In this document: in pieces, positions 2,778 to 35,298 of the stretch
Position numbering within the stretch: the first letter of the stretch is position 1
Layout of the letters: every line of letters starts with the position of its first letter
Source of the DNA: Klebsiella pneumoniae
GTDB taxonomy: Bacteria; Pseudomonadota; Gammaproteobacteria; Steroidobacterales; Steroidobacteraceae
Length of the DNA: 37,133 nucleotides
NCBI GenBank assembly: GCA_945860725.1
Contig: CAMAQZ010000016.1
Location: 1 to 37,133, forward strand
Direction: 5' to 3'
Made by a program: the position numbers and the translations under genes
Notes under the pieces: generated by a model
Database searches by the model: none
Seen by the model: the letters and a program-made list of their open reading frames with translations, nothing else
What the model was told of the DNA's origin: nothing

Positions 2778-3905
2778 ATGCGTGAAGATGTGGAGAGCAC
2801 GGCCCGCCGTACGCTCACGCGCAGCACGCGCATCTTGGGCGCACTGCAGCTCGATGGACCCCTGGTGCTCGGCCTCGCGCTGATCGTCGTGTATGGTCAG
2901 TTCGTCCTCTACAGCGCCTCGGGCGGCGACTGGAACGCGGTCGTGCGCGGCTCGATCCGGCTCTGCATCGGTGCACTCGCGATGTTGGTCTGCGCTCAGA
3001 TCAAGCCCGGCCAGCTGCGCCGTCTGTCGCCCTGGCTGTATCTGGTCGGGCTCGTGCTGCTCATCATCGTCGATGCCATAGGCTATATCGGCAAAGGTGC
3101 GCAACGATGGCTGGATCTCGGCCTGTTCCGCTTCCAGCCCTCCGAAATTATGAAGCTCGCGGTGCCGATGGCCTGCGCCTGGTACCTGCGTGAACGCTCA
3201 CTGCCCCCGGACGGCAAGACCTTGCTCGTCCTGGCCGCGCTCATCTTGGTACCGACCTTGCTGACGATCCTGCAACCGGACCTCGGTACCGGCCTGTTAA
3301 TCCTCATATCGGGCGGACTCGTCGTGCTGTTCGCCGGGCTGCAAGCTTGGATCATCGCGCTGCTCGGCGGCGCCAGCGTCGCAGCAGCCTGGGGCGGCTG
3401 GTACCTGTTGCACGACTACCAACAACAACGCGTGCTCGCCTTCCTCGATCCGCAGTACGATCCGCTCGGCGCGGGCTACCACATCATCCAATCCACCATC
3501 GCGATCGGTTCGGGCGGCGTCACCGGGAAGGGCTACCTGCAGGGTACGCAAGGACAACTGGAGTTCCTGCCGGAACGCTCCACCGATTTCGTATTCGCCG
3601 TGATCGGCGAGGAACTCGGGCTGCTCGGTGCACTGTTGCTGCTTGCGCTCTACCTTGCCGTGGTGGCGCGGGCGCTCTATCTCGCCTCGCAGATGCATGA
3701 CACCTTCGCGCGACTTCTGTCCAGCAGCTTCGCGACCATCTTCTTCGTCTATGTATTCATCAACGCGGGTATGGTGAGCGGACTGCTGCCCGTGGTCGGT
3801 GTGCCGCTGCCGCTCGTCAGCTACGGCGGGACTTCCATGGTGACCCTATTGGCGGGGTTCGGTATGCTCATGGCACTGCACGCCAACCGGAAACTTGCCG
3901 CCTGA
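2778..3905 (+). CDS. mrdB: Peptidoglycan glycosyltransferase RodA (SEDS family)
   Basis: 375 residues from ATG 2778. A GTG at 2769 overlaps the mrdA stop, but the GGGGAG at 2764-2769 is well placed (8 nt) only for ATG 2778. About ten membrane segments are visible. SEDS hallmarks are present: GAQRWLDLG and FRFQPSEIMKLA in the first half, PDLGTGLLI, the periplasmic loop with GGVTGKGYLQGTQGQLEFLP then STDFVFAVIGEELG, and PLPLVSYGGTSM near the end. RodA polymerises lipid II into glycan strands in the inner membrane and is activated by PBP2. The stop (3903-3905) overlaps the mltB start as TGATG, suggesting translational coupling. Confidence 0.96.
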   Translation: MREDVESTARRTLTRSTRILGALQLDGPLVLGLALIVVYGQFVLYSASGGDWNAVVRGSIRLCIGALAMLVCAQIKPGQLRRLSPWLYLVGLVLLIIVDAIGYIGKGAQRWLDLGLFRFQPSEIMKLAVPMACAWYLRERSLPPDGKTLLVLAALILVPTLLTILQPDLGTGLLILISGGLVVLFAGLQAWIIALLGGASVAAAWGGWYLLHDYQQQRVLAFLDPQYDPLGAGYHIIQSTIAIGSGGVTGKGYLQGTQGQLEFLPERSTDFVFAVIGEELGLLGALLLLALYLAVVARALYLASQMHDTFARLLSSSFATIFFVYVFINAGMVSGLLPVVGVPLPLVSYGGTSMVTLLAGFGMLMALHANRKLAA

Positions 3906-4972
3906 TGATGCGCCGCATAAAAGACCTGGTCACCGTCCTGCCGTTGCTGCTGCTCACCGCGTGCAGCATGCCCAGCAGCATCGCGCAGACTCCCCCGGCT
4001 GCGACGCCCCCGGCTGCGGTCGTACTACCCGAGCCGCCGACGCCCTTCGATCTCGGCCGTACCGACATCGCCGGCTGGATCGACGAGGTCGCCGCACGGC
4101 ATTCGATACCCGCCAAGGACCTGCGCGACCTGCTCGCGACCGGTCAGCGACAGCCGGCGATCCTCGCCGCCATCAGCCGCCCAGCCGAGAACGTGATGAC
4201 TTGGTGGCAATACCGCGAAAAACTCGTCTCTGAACAGCGTATCGCGGAGGGCGCGGAGTTCTGGCTGATCCACCGGCAGAGGCTCGATGCGATCAGCACG
4301 CGCACCGGTGTCGATGCGGCTTATCTGGTCGCGATCATCGGCGTCGAGTCCTCCTATGGACGCCGTGCCGGCACTTGGCGCGTGCTCGATGCGCTGATGA
4401 CCCTCGGCTTCGACTACCCGCGACGCAGCAAATTCTTCCTCGCAGAGCTCGAGCAGTTCGTGCTGCTGGTGCGCGACGAACGTCTCGACCCTGCGGCCGC
4501 GCTCGGCTCCTACGCAGGTGCGATGGGCTCGCCGCAGTTCATGCCATCGAGCTATCGCCGCTTGGCGGTCGACGGCTCGGGCGATGGTCGGCGGGACCTG
4601 TTCACGGACTGGGATGATGTGTTCGCCAGCGTCGCCAACTATTTCGTCGCGAGCGGCTGGCAACGCGGCGCGCGGGTGCTCACAGAAGCCACCGCCCCGG
4701 AGACGGTCTTCGCGGCTCTCGACCGCCGTAACCTCGACCTCAAAGACACCGCTGCGAGCCTGCGGGCACGCGGTGTGAGCTTCGATCCGGCCGTCGCCGC
4801 CGACACGCCGCTGATACTCATCCCGGCGGAGCAGCGCGACGGACCGGGTGTACGGGTGGGGTTCGCGAACTTCCGCGTCATCACCCGCTACAACCGCAGC
4901 ATCCTCTACGCGATGGCCGTGCATGACCTCGCCGACGCGCTGAGAGCACGGACGGACGCCGCCGCACCCTGA
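3905..4972 (+). CDS. mltB: Lytic murein transglycosylase B (lipoprotein)
   Basis: 355 residues. The N-terminus is a lipoprotein signal with lipobox L-T-A-C, giving lipidated C20. A proline- and alanine-rich linker follows to about residue 45, then an MltB/Slt70-type catalytic domain with the active-site glutamate E148 in IIGVESSYGRRAG and the family stretch ALGSYAGAMGSPQFMPSSYR around residue 200. The enzyme cleaves the MurNAc-GlcNAc bond to leave 1,6-anhydro ends, probably from the inner leaflet of the outer membrane. The start overlaps the mrdB stop (TGATG) and the stop overlaps the rlpA start in the same way. A second ATG directly follows the first, so the true start may be one codon later. 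Confidence 0.94.
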   Translation: MMRRIKDLVTVLPLLLLTACSMPSSIAQTPPAATPPAAVVLPEPPTPFDLGRTDIAGWIDEVAARHSIPAKDLRDLLATGQRQPAILAAISRPAENVMTWWQYREKLVSEQRIAEGAEFWLIHRQRLDAISTRTGVDAAYLVAIIGVESSYGRRAGTWRVLDALMTLGFDYPRRSKFFLAELEQFVLLVRDERLDPAAALGSYAGAMGSPQFMPSSYRRLAVDGSGDGRRDLFTDWDDVFASVANYFVASGWQRGARVLTEATAPETVFAALDRRNLDLKDTAASLRARGVSFDPAVAADTPLILIPAEQRDGPGVRVGFANFRVITRYNRSILYAMAVHDLADALRARTDAAAP

Positions 4973-30379: not shown

Positions 30380-32398
30380 TCAGCTTGCGAGCAGGCTCTC
30401 GAGCGCACGCGTGACGTGCGCGGTCGTGATGCCATATTCTTTGAACAGATCGGCAGCCTTGCCGGAGGCGCCGAAGCGGTCGATACCGATGACGCAACCG
30501 CCGCCACCGACGTACTTCCACCAGCTCTGCGAAGCGGCCGCCTCGACGGCGAGTCGGCGGCGCACGGCCTTCGGCAGCACGGCCTCGCGCCAAGCCTCGT
30601 CCTGGGCGTCGAACACGTCCGATGAGGGCATCGAGACGAGGCGCAACCGGCGACCGGCGGCGTTGAGCGCCCGGACCGCCTCGGCGCAGGGTGCGACCTC
30701 GGAACCCGTCGCGATCACGATGGCCTCCGGCTGCGCGCGACCCGCGGCGACCTCGGGGGCATCGAGCAGGATATAGCCACCGCTCGCGATCGCGGCGCGT
30801 TGCGCAGCGTCGCGCGGCTGCTGCGGCAGGGCTTGGCGCGTGAAGACGAGGCTGGTCGGCCCGTTGCGGCGCTCGATCGCCGCGCACCACGCGACCGCAG
30901 TCTCGGCGGCGTCGCAGGGCCGCCAGAGGCTGAGGTTCGGCATCGCACGCAGCGAGGCGAGATGCTCGATCGGCTGGTGCGTGGGTCCGTCTTCGCCGAG
31001 GCCGATCGAGTCGTGCGTGTAGACGAGCAGGATGCGCTGATGCATGAGCGCGGCGAGCCGCACCGCGTTGCGCGCGTAGTCGGAGAACACGAGGAAGGTG
31101 CCGGCATAGGGCGCGAATCCGCCGTGCAACGCGAGGCCGTTCATCATGGCCGTCATCGCGAACTCGCGCACTCCATAGTAGACATAGTTGCCGCCGCCCT
31201 CGTGGCCCGTCACGGGCTTGGAATCTTTGCGGAAGGTGTTGACCGAGCCGGTGAGATCCGCCGAACCGCCCAGCAGTTCACCCATCCCCGGCCCGAGCGT
31301 ATTGAGCACCACCTGCGATGAGGCACGGGTCGCCTGAGGCGCATCGACGGCAGCGGCGGAGGCCAAGGCCGCGTCGCGCAGCTGCGGCCAATCAGCGGGA
31401 AGCGCACCCGCCATGCGGCGGGTGAACTCCGCGGCGAGATCGGGGAACTCGCGGCGGTAGCGGTTGAAGCGGCGCTTCCAGGCGCGCTCGGCGCGCTCGC
31501 CGCGGGCGCGCTGGTCCCAGTCGGCGCGGATGTCCTCCGGCACCACGAACGGCGCGTGCGTCCAACCCAGCGCTGCGCGCGCGGCCGCGACCTCTTCGAT
31601 GCCGAGCGGCTCGCCATGCGTCGACTTGCTGCCCTGCTTGTTCGGGGCGCCGAAACCGATCACCGTGCGCGCGCAGATGAGCGTCGGCTGGCGGCGGTTG
31701 GCCTTAGCCCGCCGCAGCGCCTTGAGCACCGCGTCGCCGTCATGACCGTCCAGATCTTTGATGACCTGCCAACCGCAGGCGGCGAAGCGCTTCGGGGTGT
31801 CATCAGCCATCCAGCCGCTGACCGCACCATCGATGGAGATGCCGTTGTCGTCGTAGACGCAGATGAGCTTACCGAGTCCAAGCGTACCGGCGAGCGAGAC
31901 CGCTTCGTGCGAGATGCCTTCCATCAGGCAGCCGTCGCCGACGAAGACATAAGTGTGATGGTCGACGATGTCGTGTCCCGGACGGTTGAACTCCGCCGCC
32001 AATAGCCGCTCGGCGAGCGCCATGCCGACCGCGGTGGCGAGGCCTTGGCCGAGCGGACCGGTGGTGGTCTCGATGCCGATGTCGAGATCGTTCTCGGGGT
32101 GGCCGGGCGTGCGTGAACCGAGCTGGCGGAACGCGCGCAGATCGTCGATCGAGAGCGGATAGCCGCTGAGATGGTTCGCTGAATAGAGCAGCATCGATGC
32201 GTGGCCGTTCGACAGCACGAAGCGGTCACGATCGGCCCAGCGTGGATGGGTCGGGTTGAAGTCCATGACCTCGCGCCACAGGACTTCAGCGATGTCCGCC
32301 ATCCCCATCGGCGCGCCCGGATGCCCGGAGGCCGCCTGCTGCACCGCGTCCATGGAGAGCGCCCGGATGGCATTTGCGAGACGGCGACGTTGGCTCAT
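30380..32398 (-). CDS. tkt: Transketolase
   Basis: 672 residues from ATG 32398; a longer frame reaches into the metK-side spacer without family likeness. The thiamine-diphosphate motif is [20 protein letters not shown] (about residues 155-175), ending in the usual YDDN. The front reads [22 protein letters not shown] and [16 protein letters not shown], and the pyrimidine domain has [24 protein letters not shown]. The enzyme exchanges two-carbon units in the pentose phosphate pathway and produces the glyceraldehyde-3-phosphate used by Gap. It is divergent from metK (150 bp). No clear promoter was found; TTGGAT and GAGAAT at 18 bp are poor matches. Confidence 0.96.
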
Positions 32399-32499
32399 AG
32401 GGACATCCGAAGGCTTGCAGGAAACAGCAATTCTCGCCCACAGCGGCGCCAATATCCAACGAAAATGACGGCCCAAGGCCGCGGCGGCACGCCGGACAT

Positions 32500-32508
32500 T
32501 GTTATAAT
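32500..32508 (+). promoter_or_regulatory. Extended -10 promoter of metK
   Basis: TGTTATAAT is a perfect TGn-TATAAT extended -10. No -35 match is found 16-18 bp upstream, which extended -10 promoters tolerate. The predicted start is near 32515, leaving a 34-nt leader before ATG 32549. That leader is too short for any SAM riboswitch class and shows none of their motifs. Confidence 0.65.
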
Positions 32509-32548
32509 GGAAGGCTTAGCACACCCCTCACGAGAGCGAGACACTGCC

Positions 32549-33721
32549 ATGGCGAACGATTTTCTCTTCACCTCCGAGTCCGTCTCGGAAGGCCACCCGG
32601 ACAAGGTCGCCGACCAGATCTCCGATGCCATCCTCGATGCGATCCTCGCTGAGGACAAAGGCGCCCGCGTGGCCTGTGAGACCCTGGTCAAGACGGGTGT
32701 CGTCATCGTCGCCGGCGAAGTCACGACCAACGTGTGGGTCGATATCGAGGCCGTGGTGCGCAAGACCGTGCTCGACATCGGCTACAACTCCTCCGACATG
32801 GGCTTCGATGGCGCCTCCTGCGGCGTGCTCAATGTCATCGGCAAGCAGTCGGTCGACATTGCACAGGGTGTCGATCGCAAAGACCCGCGCAAGCAGGGCG
32901 CCGGCGACCAGGGTCTGATGTTCGGCTTCGCCACCCACGAGACCGATGTGCTGATGCCCGCCGCCATCACCCTCTCGCATCGGCTCGTCGAGCGTCAGGC
33001 CAAGGTGCGCAAGTCCGGCAAACTCGCCTGGCTGCGCCCCGATGCCAAGAGCCAGGTCACGCTGCGCTACGAGAACGACCGACCGGTCGCGATCGATGCC
33101 GTCGTGCTCTCCACCCAGCACTCGGACGACATCTCCACCAAGGCGCTGCGCGAGGCCGTGATGGAGGAGATCCTGCTGCCCGTGCTGCCCAAAAAATGGC
33201 TGCATAAAGGCACCAAGTTCCATATCAACCCGACCGGCCGCTTCGTCATCGGCGGTCCGGTGGGCGACTGCGGCCTCACCGGCCGCAAGATCATCGTCGA
33301 CACCTACGGCGGTTTCGCCCGCCACGGCGGCGGCGCGTTCTCGGGCAAGGACCCCTCGAAGGTCGATCGCTCGGCCGCTTATGCCGCGCGCTATGTCGCC
33401 AAGAACATCGTCGCTGCGGGCCTCGCCGAACGTTGCGAGGTGCAGGTCTCCTACGCCATCGGCGTCGCCGAACCGACCTCGATCATGGTCGAGACCTTCG
33501 GCACCGGGACGCTGTCGCGCGACAAACTCACGGCGCTGGTGCGCCGGCATTTCGATCTGACCCCCTACGGGCTGCGCGAGATGCTCGACCTCGCCCGTCC
33601 GATCTACCTCAAGACCGCGGCCTACGGCCACTTCGGCCGCAAGCACCCGGATTTCACCTGGGAGCGCACCGACAAGGCCGCAGCGCTCGCCGCCGACGCC
33701 GGCGCGAAGACCCGGCGCTGA
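32549..33721 (+). CDS. metK: S-adenosylmethionine synthetase
   Basis: 390 residues from ATG 32549; family lengths are 380-400. Visible motifs are [24 protein letters not shown] at the front (ATP and metal site), [12 protein letters not shown], the mobile-loop region, and [19 protein letters not shown] near residue 260. It joins methionine and ATP to form SAM in the cytoplasm. It is read away from tkt from an extended -10 promoter, and ahcY follows after 170 bp that contain a riboswitch, so synthesis of SAM and disposal of its by-product SAH are encoded together but can be controlled apart. Confidence 0.97.
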
Positions 33722-33738
33722 ACGAGCCGGGTTTCGAC

Positions 33739-33744
33739 TACAAT
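33739..33744 (+). promoter_or_regulatory. Possible -10 of the ahcY leader
   Basis: TACAAT lies 18 bp after the metK stop and about 50 nt before the riboswitch. CTGAAC 15 bp upstream is a poor -35. If used, transcription would begin near 33751 and include the complete riboswitch. Confidence 0.4.
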
Positions 33745-33794
33745 CTTCGACCGTAAATGGCCCGATCGCCCGCAAAGGCGACCAGGCCGCGTGA

Positions 33795-33861
33795 CGCGAG
33801 GGGCGCTGCAGCATCGATGGGATGCGAGGCTCGCGGCACGGCAGGATGCACAACGGCGCCC
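33795..33861 (+). ncRNA. S-adenosylhomocysteine (SAH) riboswitch upstream of ahcY
   Basis: The known SAH riboswitch architecture can be drawn from the sequence. P1 is CGCGAG (33795-33800) with CTCGCG (33830-33835). P2 is GCATC (33811-33815) with GATGC (33821-33825) and a 5-nt loop. The pseudoknot is GGGCGC (33801-33806) with GCGCCC (33856-33861). The conserved core GAGG-GCGCTGCA after P1 and GAGGCTCG before its 3' strand match the class consensus as I recall it. The ahcY ribosome site (GGAG 33882-33885) begins 21 nt later. In this class SAH binding raises downstream expression, which suits removal of SAH by AhcY. Confidence 0.88.
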
Positions 33862-33891
33862 GTTCATCTTTCTAAGATAACGGAGCCGACC

Positions 33892-35298
33892 ATGACCAGC
33901 ACCGCCACGCGCGACTTCCATGTCGCCGACCTTGCCCTTGCCGACTGGGGCCGCAAAGAGATCCGCATCGCCGAGACGGAGATGCCGGGCCTCCTGGGGA
34001 TCCGTGACGAGTTCGCCCCGACGCAGCCGCTGCGCGGCGCCCGCATCACCGGGTCGCTGCACATGACCATCCAGACAGCCGTGCTGATCGAGACGCTGCA
34101 GGCGCTCGGCGCTCAGGTCCGCTGGGCTTCCTGCAACATCTTCTCGACGCAGGACCATGCCGCCGCCGCCATCGCCGTCCAAGGCACGGCGGTGTTCGCC
34201 TACAAGGGCGAGTCTCTCAAAGAATACTGGGACTTCACCCATCGCATCTTCGAGTGGCCGGACGGCGGCTTCTCGAACATGATCCTTGATGACGGCGGCG
34301 ACGCCACGCTGCTGCTGCACCTCGGGACCCGCGCCGAGACGGACGCCTCGCTGCTGACCAACCCGGGCAGCGAAGAGGAGACCTTCCTCTTCGACTCGAT
34401 CCGCGAGACGCTCAAGCGCGACCCGAAGTGGTATTCGACCCGCATCAAGCACATCCGCGGCGTCACCGAGGAAACCACTACCGGCGTCAAGCGCCTCTAC
34501 CAGATGGCGAAAGACGGCGCGCTCGCCTTCCCCGCCATCAACGTCAACGATGCCGTGACGAAGTCCAAGTTCGACAACCTGTATGGTTGCCGCGAGTCGC
34601 TCGTCGATGCGATCAAGCGCGCCACCGATGTGATGATCGCTGGCAAGGTCGCGGTGGTCTGCGGCTATGGTGACGTGGGCAAGGGTTCGGCGCAGGCGCT
34701 GCGGGCGCTGTCGGCCCAGGTGTGGGTCACGGAAGTCGATCCGATCTGCGCACTGCAGGCGGCGATGGAGGGTTATCGCGTGGTCACCATGGAGTACGCC
34801 GCCGACAAGGCGGACATCTTCGTCACCGCCACCGGCAACTACCATGTCATCACGCACGATCACATGCAGGCGATGAAGAATCAGGCGATCGTCTGTAACA
34901 TCGGCCACTTCGACAATGAGATCGACTGCGCCTCTTTGAAGCAGTACCAGTGGGACAACATCAAGCCGCAGGTCGACCACATCATCTTCCCCGACGGCAA
35001 GCGCATCACGCTGCTCGCGGAAGGCCGGCTCGTGAACCTCGGCTGCGGCACCGGACATCCGTCGTATGTGATGTCCTCGTCGTTCGCCAACCAGACCATC
35101 GCCCAGATCGAGCTTTGGTCGAACCACAACAAGTACCCGGTCGGCGTCCATGTGCTTCCCAAGCACCTCGACGAGAAGGTCGCGCGGCTGCAGCTCCAGA
35201 AGCTCGGCGCCCGGCTGACCGAGCTCTCCGACCAGCAGGCGAACTACATCGGGGTCACCAAGCAGGGCCCCTACAAGCCGGACGCCTACCGGTACTGA
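33892..35298 (+). CDS. ahcY: Adenosylhomocysteinase (SAH hydrolase)
   Basis: 468 residues from ATG 33892, with GGAG 6 nt upstream; a longer frame would run through the riboswitch and is rejected. The front has [17 protein letters not shown] and [24 protein letters not shown]. The NAD-binding loop is [13 protein letters not shown], with [22 protein letters not shown] before it, and the C-terminal [10 protein letters not shown] supplies the partner-subunit NAD contacts. It splits SAH into adenosine and homocysteine, relieving inhibition of methyltransferases. The 468-residue length with the extra insert around residues 160-200 is the bacterial form. Confidence 0.97.

Follow-up and report, generated by a model that had tools for sequence, protein, structure and literature searches.

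The leader of ahcY in the stretch of DNA analysed here (37,133 nucleotides, called the window in what follows) carries an SAH riboswitch that probably acts as a translational ON switch by releasing the Shine-Dalgarno (SD) sequence of the gene. The feature belongs to the SAH riboswitch class RF01057, and its aptamer is genuine but ordinary. It adds one more genome to a known riboswitch class, together with a proposed switching mechanism that is clear, testable and conserved in the genus. Its wider value lies in the comparison with other genomes, which led to a set of RNAs with a swapped core, always located before a MOSC-domain gene.

The aptamer upstream of ahcY

The Rfam scan of the whole window gave RF01057 as the sole match over cut-off. 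The match lies at 33792-33868 on the plus strand, spans the full model (positions 1-78), and has an E value of 5.8e-6 over the window and 4227 families. A preliminary description of this site had read it as an SAH riboswitch and named a score above the Rfam gathering threshold as support; the score was 47.8 bits against a gathering cut-off of 37. When the window's own genome was scanned with RF01057, no second SAH match was found. The downstream gene had been called ahcY, and its product matched TIGR00936 with 602.1 bits (cut-off, 497.6) in the NCBIfam profile search.

P1 is formed by the strands 33790-33793/33837-33840 and 33795-33799/33831-33835, which flank an A33794/G33836 mismatch. P2 pairs 33811-33815 with 33821-33825 and was clearly more stable than shuffled sequences (-7.1 kcal/mol, z -4.3), and the pseudoknot between 33801-33806 and 33856-33861 has 6 bp. 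The core letters GAGGGGCGCUGCA, AGGCUCG, and CAACGGCGCCC were all found in the aptamer. The sole departure from the core is G33826, where most loci read C; the equivalent position is also G in L011, L029, and L032. The last pseudoknot base (33861) is separated by 30 nt from the ahcY ATG at 33892, the distance given previously. The P4 region had been suspected of being poorly paired, and the segment 33836-33855 indeed folded no better than shuffles (-2.3 kcal/mol, z -0.9). At 32 of the 34 ahcY loci compared below, the P4 position is occupied by a linker of 6-23 nt, and a long stable hairpin is confined to L033 and L034. The P4 hairpin is optional and hence not defining for SAH riboswitches. The span originally proposed for the element (33795-33861) leaves out the outer part of P1, which extends about 5 nt further 5', as well as the expression platform. 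The features are listed in Table 1.

Table 1 Features of the metK-ahcY region of the window and loci of the MOSC-associated RNA.
Feature	Position	Strand	Basis
metK, methionine adenosyltransferase, 390 aa	32549..33721	+	NCBIfam TIGR01034, 618.2 bits
TATAAT, candidate -10 of metK	32503..32508	+	sequence only
TACAAT, candidate -10 of an ahcY promoter, between metK and the aptamer	33739..33744	+	hexamer comparison over the genus
P1, enclosing P2	33790..33840	+	sequence; covariation in alignment A1
P2 hairpin, GCAUC/GAUGC, 5-nt loop	33811..33825	+	Rfam match, covariation, folding
Pseudoknot 5' strand, GGGCGC	33801..33806	+	partner of 33856-33861
Pseudoknot 3' strand, GCGCCC, doubling as anti-SD strand	33856..33861	+	covariation, per-locus folds
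Sequestering (OFF) hairpin	33854..33888	+	folding of the window and genus loci
ahcY SD sequence, GGAG, 6 nt before the ATG	33882..33885	+	sequence
ahcY, adenosylhomocysteinase, 468 aa	33892..35298	+	Pfam PF05221, NCBIfam TIGR00936
MOSC-variant loci (outside the window)	L035:1596-1673, L036:1697-1772, L146/L155, L147/L156, L157, L158, L159, L160, L161, L162		

Occurrence and covariation in related genomes

An SAH match was obtained in 36 of 60 related genomes (the window's genome counted), and 35 of the matches were over the cut-off. Each of the 36 loci (L001-L036) was examined. ahcY is located directly downstream in 34 of them, the two loci without it being L035 and L036. Of the 34 ahcY-linked loci, 33 also have metK upstream in the same orientation; L023 is the exception.

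Alignment A1 was composed of 21 genus loci and two family loci (23 rows, 22 distinct). Over P1, P2, and the pseudoknot, 92.3% of its cells form standard pairs, compared with 28-45% when the partners were slid. Two-sided changes occur at 10 of 20 pairs, and none of 500 shuffles reached any of the observed measures. The covariation signal is carried by P1 (two-sided changes at 6 of 9 pairs; 83.3% of cells paired) and P2 (3 of 5 pairs; 99.1%). The pseudoknot is nearly invariant in this alignment: 100% of its cells are paired, and only one of its six pairs varies, by a two-sided change in one row. In the wider alignment A4, the pseudoknot has two-sided changes at 3 of 6 pairs. All three pairings proposed in the preliminary description are present in the sequence and covary across relatives.

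The search for AhcY covered 20 of the 24 genomes lacking an SAH match, plus G011 and G057; of these 22, 20 gave matches, some of which were fragments. No SAH match was detected by Rfam at a permissive threshold at fourteen ahcY loci (L117-L130). Four of these loci, L117-L120, are from the window's family and have metK and ahcY adjacent without a riboswitch, which amounts to gain or loss within one family. Another, L122, has a sub-threshold match to the cspA thermoregulator at 3592-3990 (33.2 bits; cut-off, 78). A regular expression was run on 80 named ahcY loci, most with proteobacterial titles, and found the 5' SAH core at most 260 nt upstream in 65. The AhcY proteins of two public MAG records, L037 and L041, are 91% and 84% identical to that of the window. 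Their titles, Klebsiella pneumoniae and Bordetella parapertussis, respectively, are probably wrong, and L037 and L010 seem to be one contig.

Shine-Dalgarno release as the proposed switch

The segment 33850-33900 folds with -16.0 kcal/mol (z -3.62), and none of 200 shuffles folded as well. The resulting OFF hairpin pairs 33854-33857 with 33885-33888, 33860-33864 with 33879-33883, and 33866-33870 with 33874-33878. It takes four of the six bases of the pseudoknot strand (33856, 33857, 33860, and 33861) and covers three of the four SD bases of ahcY. Because the hairpin shares bases with the pseudoknot and buries the SD sequence, the two structures are mutually exclusive. The competing hairpin and its geometry are conserved. 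In folds of the individual loci, three or more of the 4 SD bases pair with the pseudoknot strand at all 21 genus loci and at 29 of the 34 loci overall, the remainder being L012, L016, L021, L033, and L034. All four pairs at the base of the hairpin are kept in the 22 distinct rows of A1; two-sided changes occur at three of them and all come from one distant locus, L029.

We calculated the local cost of opening the SD sequence with the pseudoknot strand free or occupied. In the window, the cost was 10.4 kcal/mol when the strand was free and 1.6 kcal/mol when it was occupied, and a drop of at least 1.5 kcal/mol was observed at 21 of 21 genus loci. The medians over the 34 loci were 6.1 and 2.0 kcal/mol, respectively. 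When the spacers of these loci were shuffled, the median drop was 0.5, compared with 3.2 observed, and for the window's spacer only one of 60 trials matched the observed drop. The SD finder gave no convincing SD sequence in L021, and two analyses disagreed for L003 and L016; these rows were kept in the counts.

The full ahcY leader folded no better than shuffles (z -0.22). In the full-length model of the window, masking the six pseudoknot bases alone left the SD sequence closed (5.3 vs 5.1 kcal/mol), presumably because bases of the unfolded aptamer take over, and masking the whole aptamer opened it (1.6 kcal/mol). Outside the genus, SD opening that depends on the pseudoknot was absent at L011, L012, L016, L018, L020, L021, and L033. 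In view of these results, we take SD release as the likely mechanism of the window's genus and not as a rule for the whole class.

On this model, when SAH is scarce, 33854-33864 would pair with 33879-33888 and hide GGAG, so that ahcY would be poorly translated. When SAH accumulates, it would bind the aptamer formed by P1, P2, and the pseudoknot and hold 33856-33861 against 33801-33806. The OFF hairpin would then lose the pairs that cover GGAG, ribosomes could load, and SAH hydrolase would be made. Binding of SAH, the switching itself, its ON direction, and control of translation rather than transcription are the parts that we infer.

Promoters and alternative readings of the ahcY leader

metK is located upstream, has a candidate -10 hexamer of its own, and ends before the aptamer; it therefore lies outside the control of the riboswitch, in agreement with the preliminary description. 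The cited passages of a survey of proteobacterial methionine regulons likewise state that SAH riboswitches precede ahcY and do not control metK (PMC4239095). A promoter for ahcY itself is plausible from the hexamers in the gap between metK and the aptamer. At 13 of 21 genus loci, this gap contains a hexamer matching TATAAT in at least 5 of 6 positions, and in nine of the 13 the hexamer sits 9-13 nt before the P1 reference point; the 13 loci are related and are not 13 independent cases. No good -35 for the candidate at TACAAT was found in the window, and a consensus scan gave no sigma-70 site within 32300-34000.

In much of the genus the -10-like hexamer is close to P1, unlike in the window, where a GC-rich hairpin (33757-33792; -16.9 kcal/mol, z -2.4) is inserted between the candidate -10 and P1. 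The closest relatives of the window (L024, L030, and L032) have this insert as well. Additionally, the ahcY frame is open upstream to an ATG at 33757 (33757-35298), giving a possible N-terminal extension of 45 codons. The aptamer lies inside this possible extension, and automatic annotation could put the start at 33757. We favour 33892 as the probable start from the SD sequence and homology.

It is quite conceivable, if on the whole doubtful, that metK and ahcY form one operon and that the riboswitch tunes only ahcY on a shared transcript, without a promoter for ahcY. Such an arrangement is compatible with SD release. The order of metK before ahcY on the same strand at 33 of the 34 riboswitch loci points toward it, as do the same order in family genomes without the riboswitch and the poor -35 of the candidate ahcY promoter in the window, while the TATAAT-like hexamers at 13 of 21 genus loci, nine of them within the narrow interval before P1, argue for separate initiation. 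Control of transcription, with the aptamer preventing an intrinsic terminator between itself and ahcY, is unlikely. A consensus scan did give a weak terminator-like site at 33852-33864 (AACGGCGCCCGTT then CATCTTTCTA). However, its stem has 5 bp with 3 G-C pairs and its T tract is broken, and for this short stem and broken tract we rejected it as the main mechanism. Furthermore, two terminator-like sites in the region compare with 1.1 expected from shuffles, the OFF hairpin is not followed by a U-run, which disfavours a terminator, and what the genus conserves is the hairpin that covers the SD sequence.

That the aptamer is degenerate or non-functional and has been kept by chance is very improbable. 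Its 47.8 bits are among the lowest in the genus (19 of the 20 other ahcY-linked genus genomes score higher, and only G020, with 47.5, scores below), and both the A/G mismatch of P1 and the less common letter at G33826 would fit this reading. Against it, neither the core blocks nor the 6-bp pseudoknot is disrupted, P1 and P2 stay paired through their changes, and the nearest relatives (L030, L032, and L024) share the architecture. We retain an SAH aptamer with SD release as the preferred reading of the ahcY leader.

A swapped-core RNA upstream of MOSC genes

L035 (37.0 bits) and L036 (32.7 bits), the two loci without ahcY, have an SAH-like motif before a gene for a MOSC_N + MOSC protein (PF03476, PF03473). 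A pattern search revealed two further genomes with a MOSC-linked motif, and a covariance model, R1, was built from these four loci. R1 led to five more: G470, G486, G531, and G672, where DNA upstream of MOSC homologues matched, and G682, which R1 found directly. In total, an SAH-like RNA stands directly before the MOSC gene at nine loci in nine genomes, all from the taxonomic order of the window. All seven MOSC homologues with E <= 1e-40 in 296 genomes of the order have the RNA upstream; the motif was absent at two distant homologues, L176 and L177 (40 and 39% identity; found in 2 of 398 genomes of the phylum sample). The other eight MOSC proteins share 58-75% identity with the first. All nine have an invariant 'RC' cysteine close to the C-terminus, which we take to be the molybdenum-cofactor cysteine.

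Two of the nine MOSC-variant genomes reach the RF01057 gathering score of 37 (39.6 and 37.0 bits), six score 23-33, and G682 was unmatched. No second SAH match over the cut-off was found in the nine genomes. G011, the source of L036, is filed in the window's genus and has 4.3 Mb; the contig that carries its MOSC variant has possibly been binned wrongly. No ahcY-linked SAH riboswitch was seen in G011, where ahcY gave a fragmentary match at the end of a contig.

The pattern GAGAGGCGCTGC...CACGCTC...AAGGGCGCC occurred in none of 369 genomes of the class sample and in three of 296 of the order sample. It proved too strict, missing members with GAGGGGC that R1 recovered. In the 296 genomes, R1 gave 21 matches, consisting of seven MOSC loci, 13 by ahcY and/or metK, and one (L175) by neither, which we took as a chance match; canonical SAH riboswitches are also matched by R1, weakly. 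L186 (29.7 bits) and L187 (23.5 bits) likewise look like chance, with broken pairing or core letters, and neither stands before ahcY or a MOSC gene in the portion read. A MOSC operon was considered and set aside: acetyltransferase-like ORFs, recognised by eye, follow the MOSC gene in L036 and L147 and not in the other seven.

Relative to the ahcY-type core, the nine MOSC RNAs change CAGGCU to CACGCU together with AACGG to AAGGG. Columns 40 and 71 of A4 read G-C in 44 of 44 ahcY or metK-ahcY loci and C-G in 9 of 9 MOSC loci, and they form a standard pair in 25 of 25 rows. Among the 65 named ahcY loci in which the regular expression found the core, 60 have G and C, and none has C and G; four have G with the other letter unread or T, and one has C with the first letter unread. 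One of the two changed bases presumably corresponds to C46 in construct numbering. The cited part of a simulation study on the crystal structure of the SAH riboswitch describes C16 and A29 as sandwiching the SAH adenine, G15 as bonding the adenine, and C46 as located at the homocysteine tail of SAH (PMC7057144). A ligand-side base that changes with its partner, and along with the downstream gene, is the pattern expected of specificity variants.

At 9 of 9 loci, the pseudoknot strand pairs with SD bases of the MOSC gene (five bases at six loci, four at two, and two at L156). There is good support for the MOSC-associated RNA being real and structured. We tentatively propose, at slightly under an even chance, that this swapped-core variant controls MOSC-domain (PF03476+PF03473) genes by SD release and responds to some ligand different from SAH. 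The non-SAH ligand is the speculative part of this reading; the swapped pair is again Watson-Crick and may leave SAH binding intact, and for this reason we hold the altered ligand at modest odds. If the RNA does sense another ligand, it would offer a naturally occurring change of specificity in a riboswitch whose structure is solved, and would hint at the substrate on which the uncharacterised MOSC protein acts. No published account of this RNA was found in the open-access literature searched, and an earlier description may exist elsewhere. The cited part of a 2013 survey of riboswitch regulons gives PF04020 and PF04993 as novel SAH-riboswitch genes, with MOSC absent there (PMC3766115).

Comparison with known riboswitches

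The window feature shares with RF01057 its above-cut-off score, P1, P2, the pseudoknot, the core letters, and the site before ahcY. It differs in lacking P4 and in having G33826 for the usual C, and the expression platform is the one proposed here for the window's genus. A precedent for the MOSC RNAs is given by riboswitch variants with a changed ligand, such as a spermidine riboswitch reported to derive from a SAM aptamer (PMC10853860). Both would be a known aptamer put before a new gene with few changes, the ligand of the MOSC RNAs being putative. The SAM/SAH riboswitch, RF01727, gave no match in the Rfam scan of the window. According to the cited passages, it occurs before metK in Rhodobacterales (PMC2864571), and its ligand directly blocks the RBS (PMC10907184). 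The switch proposed for the window is similar in that the pseudoknot is tied to the SD sequence, whereas it would be opposite in sign and stands before ahcY, not metK.
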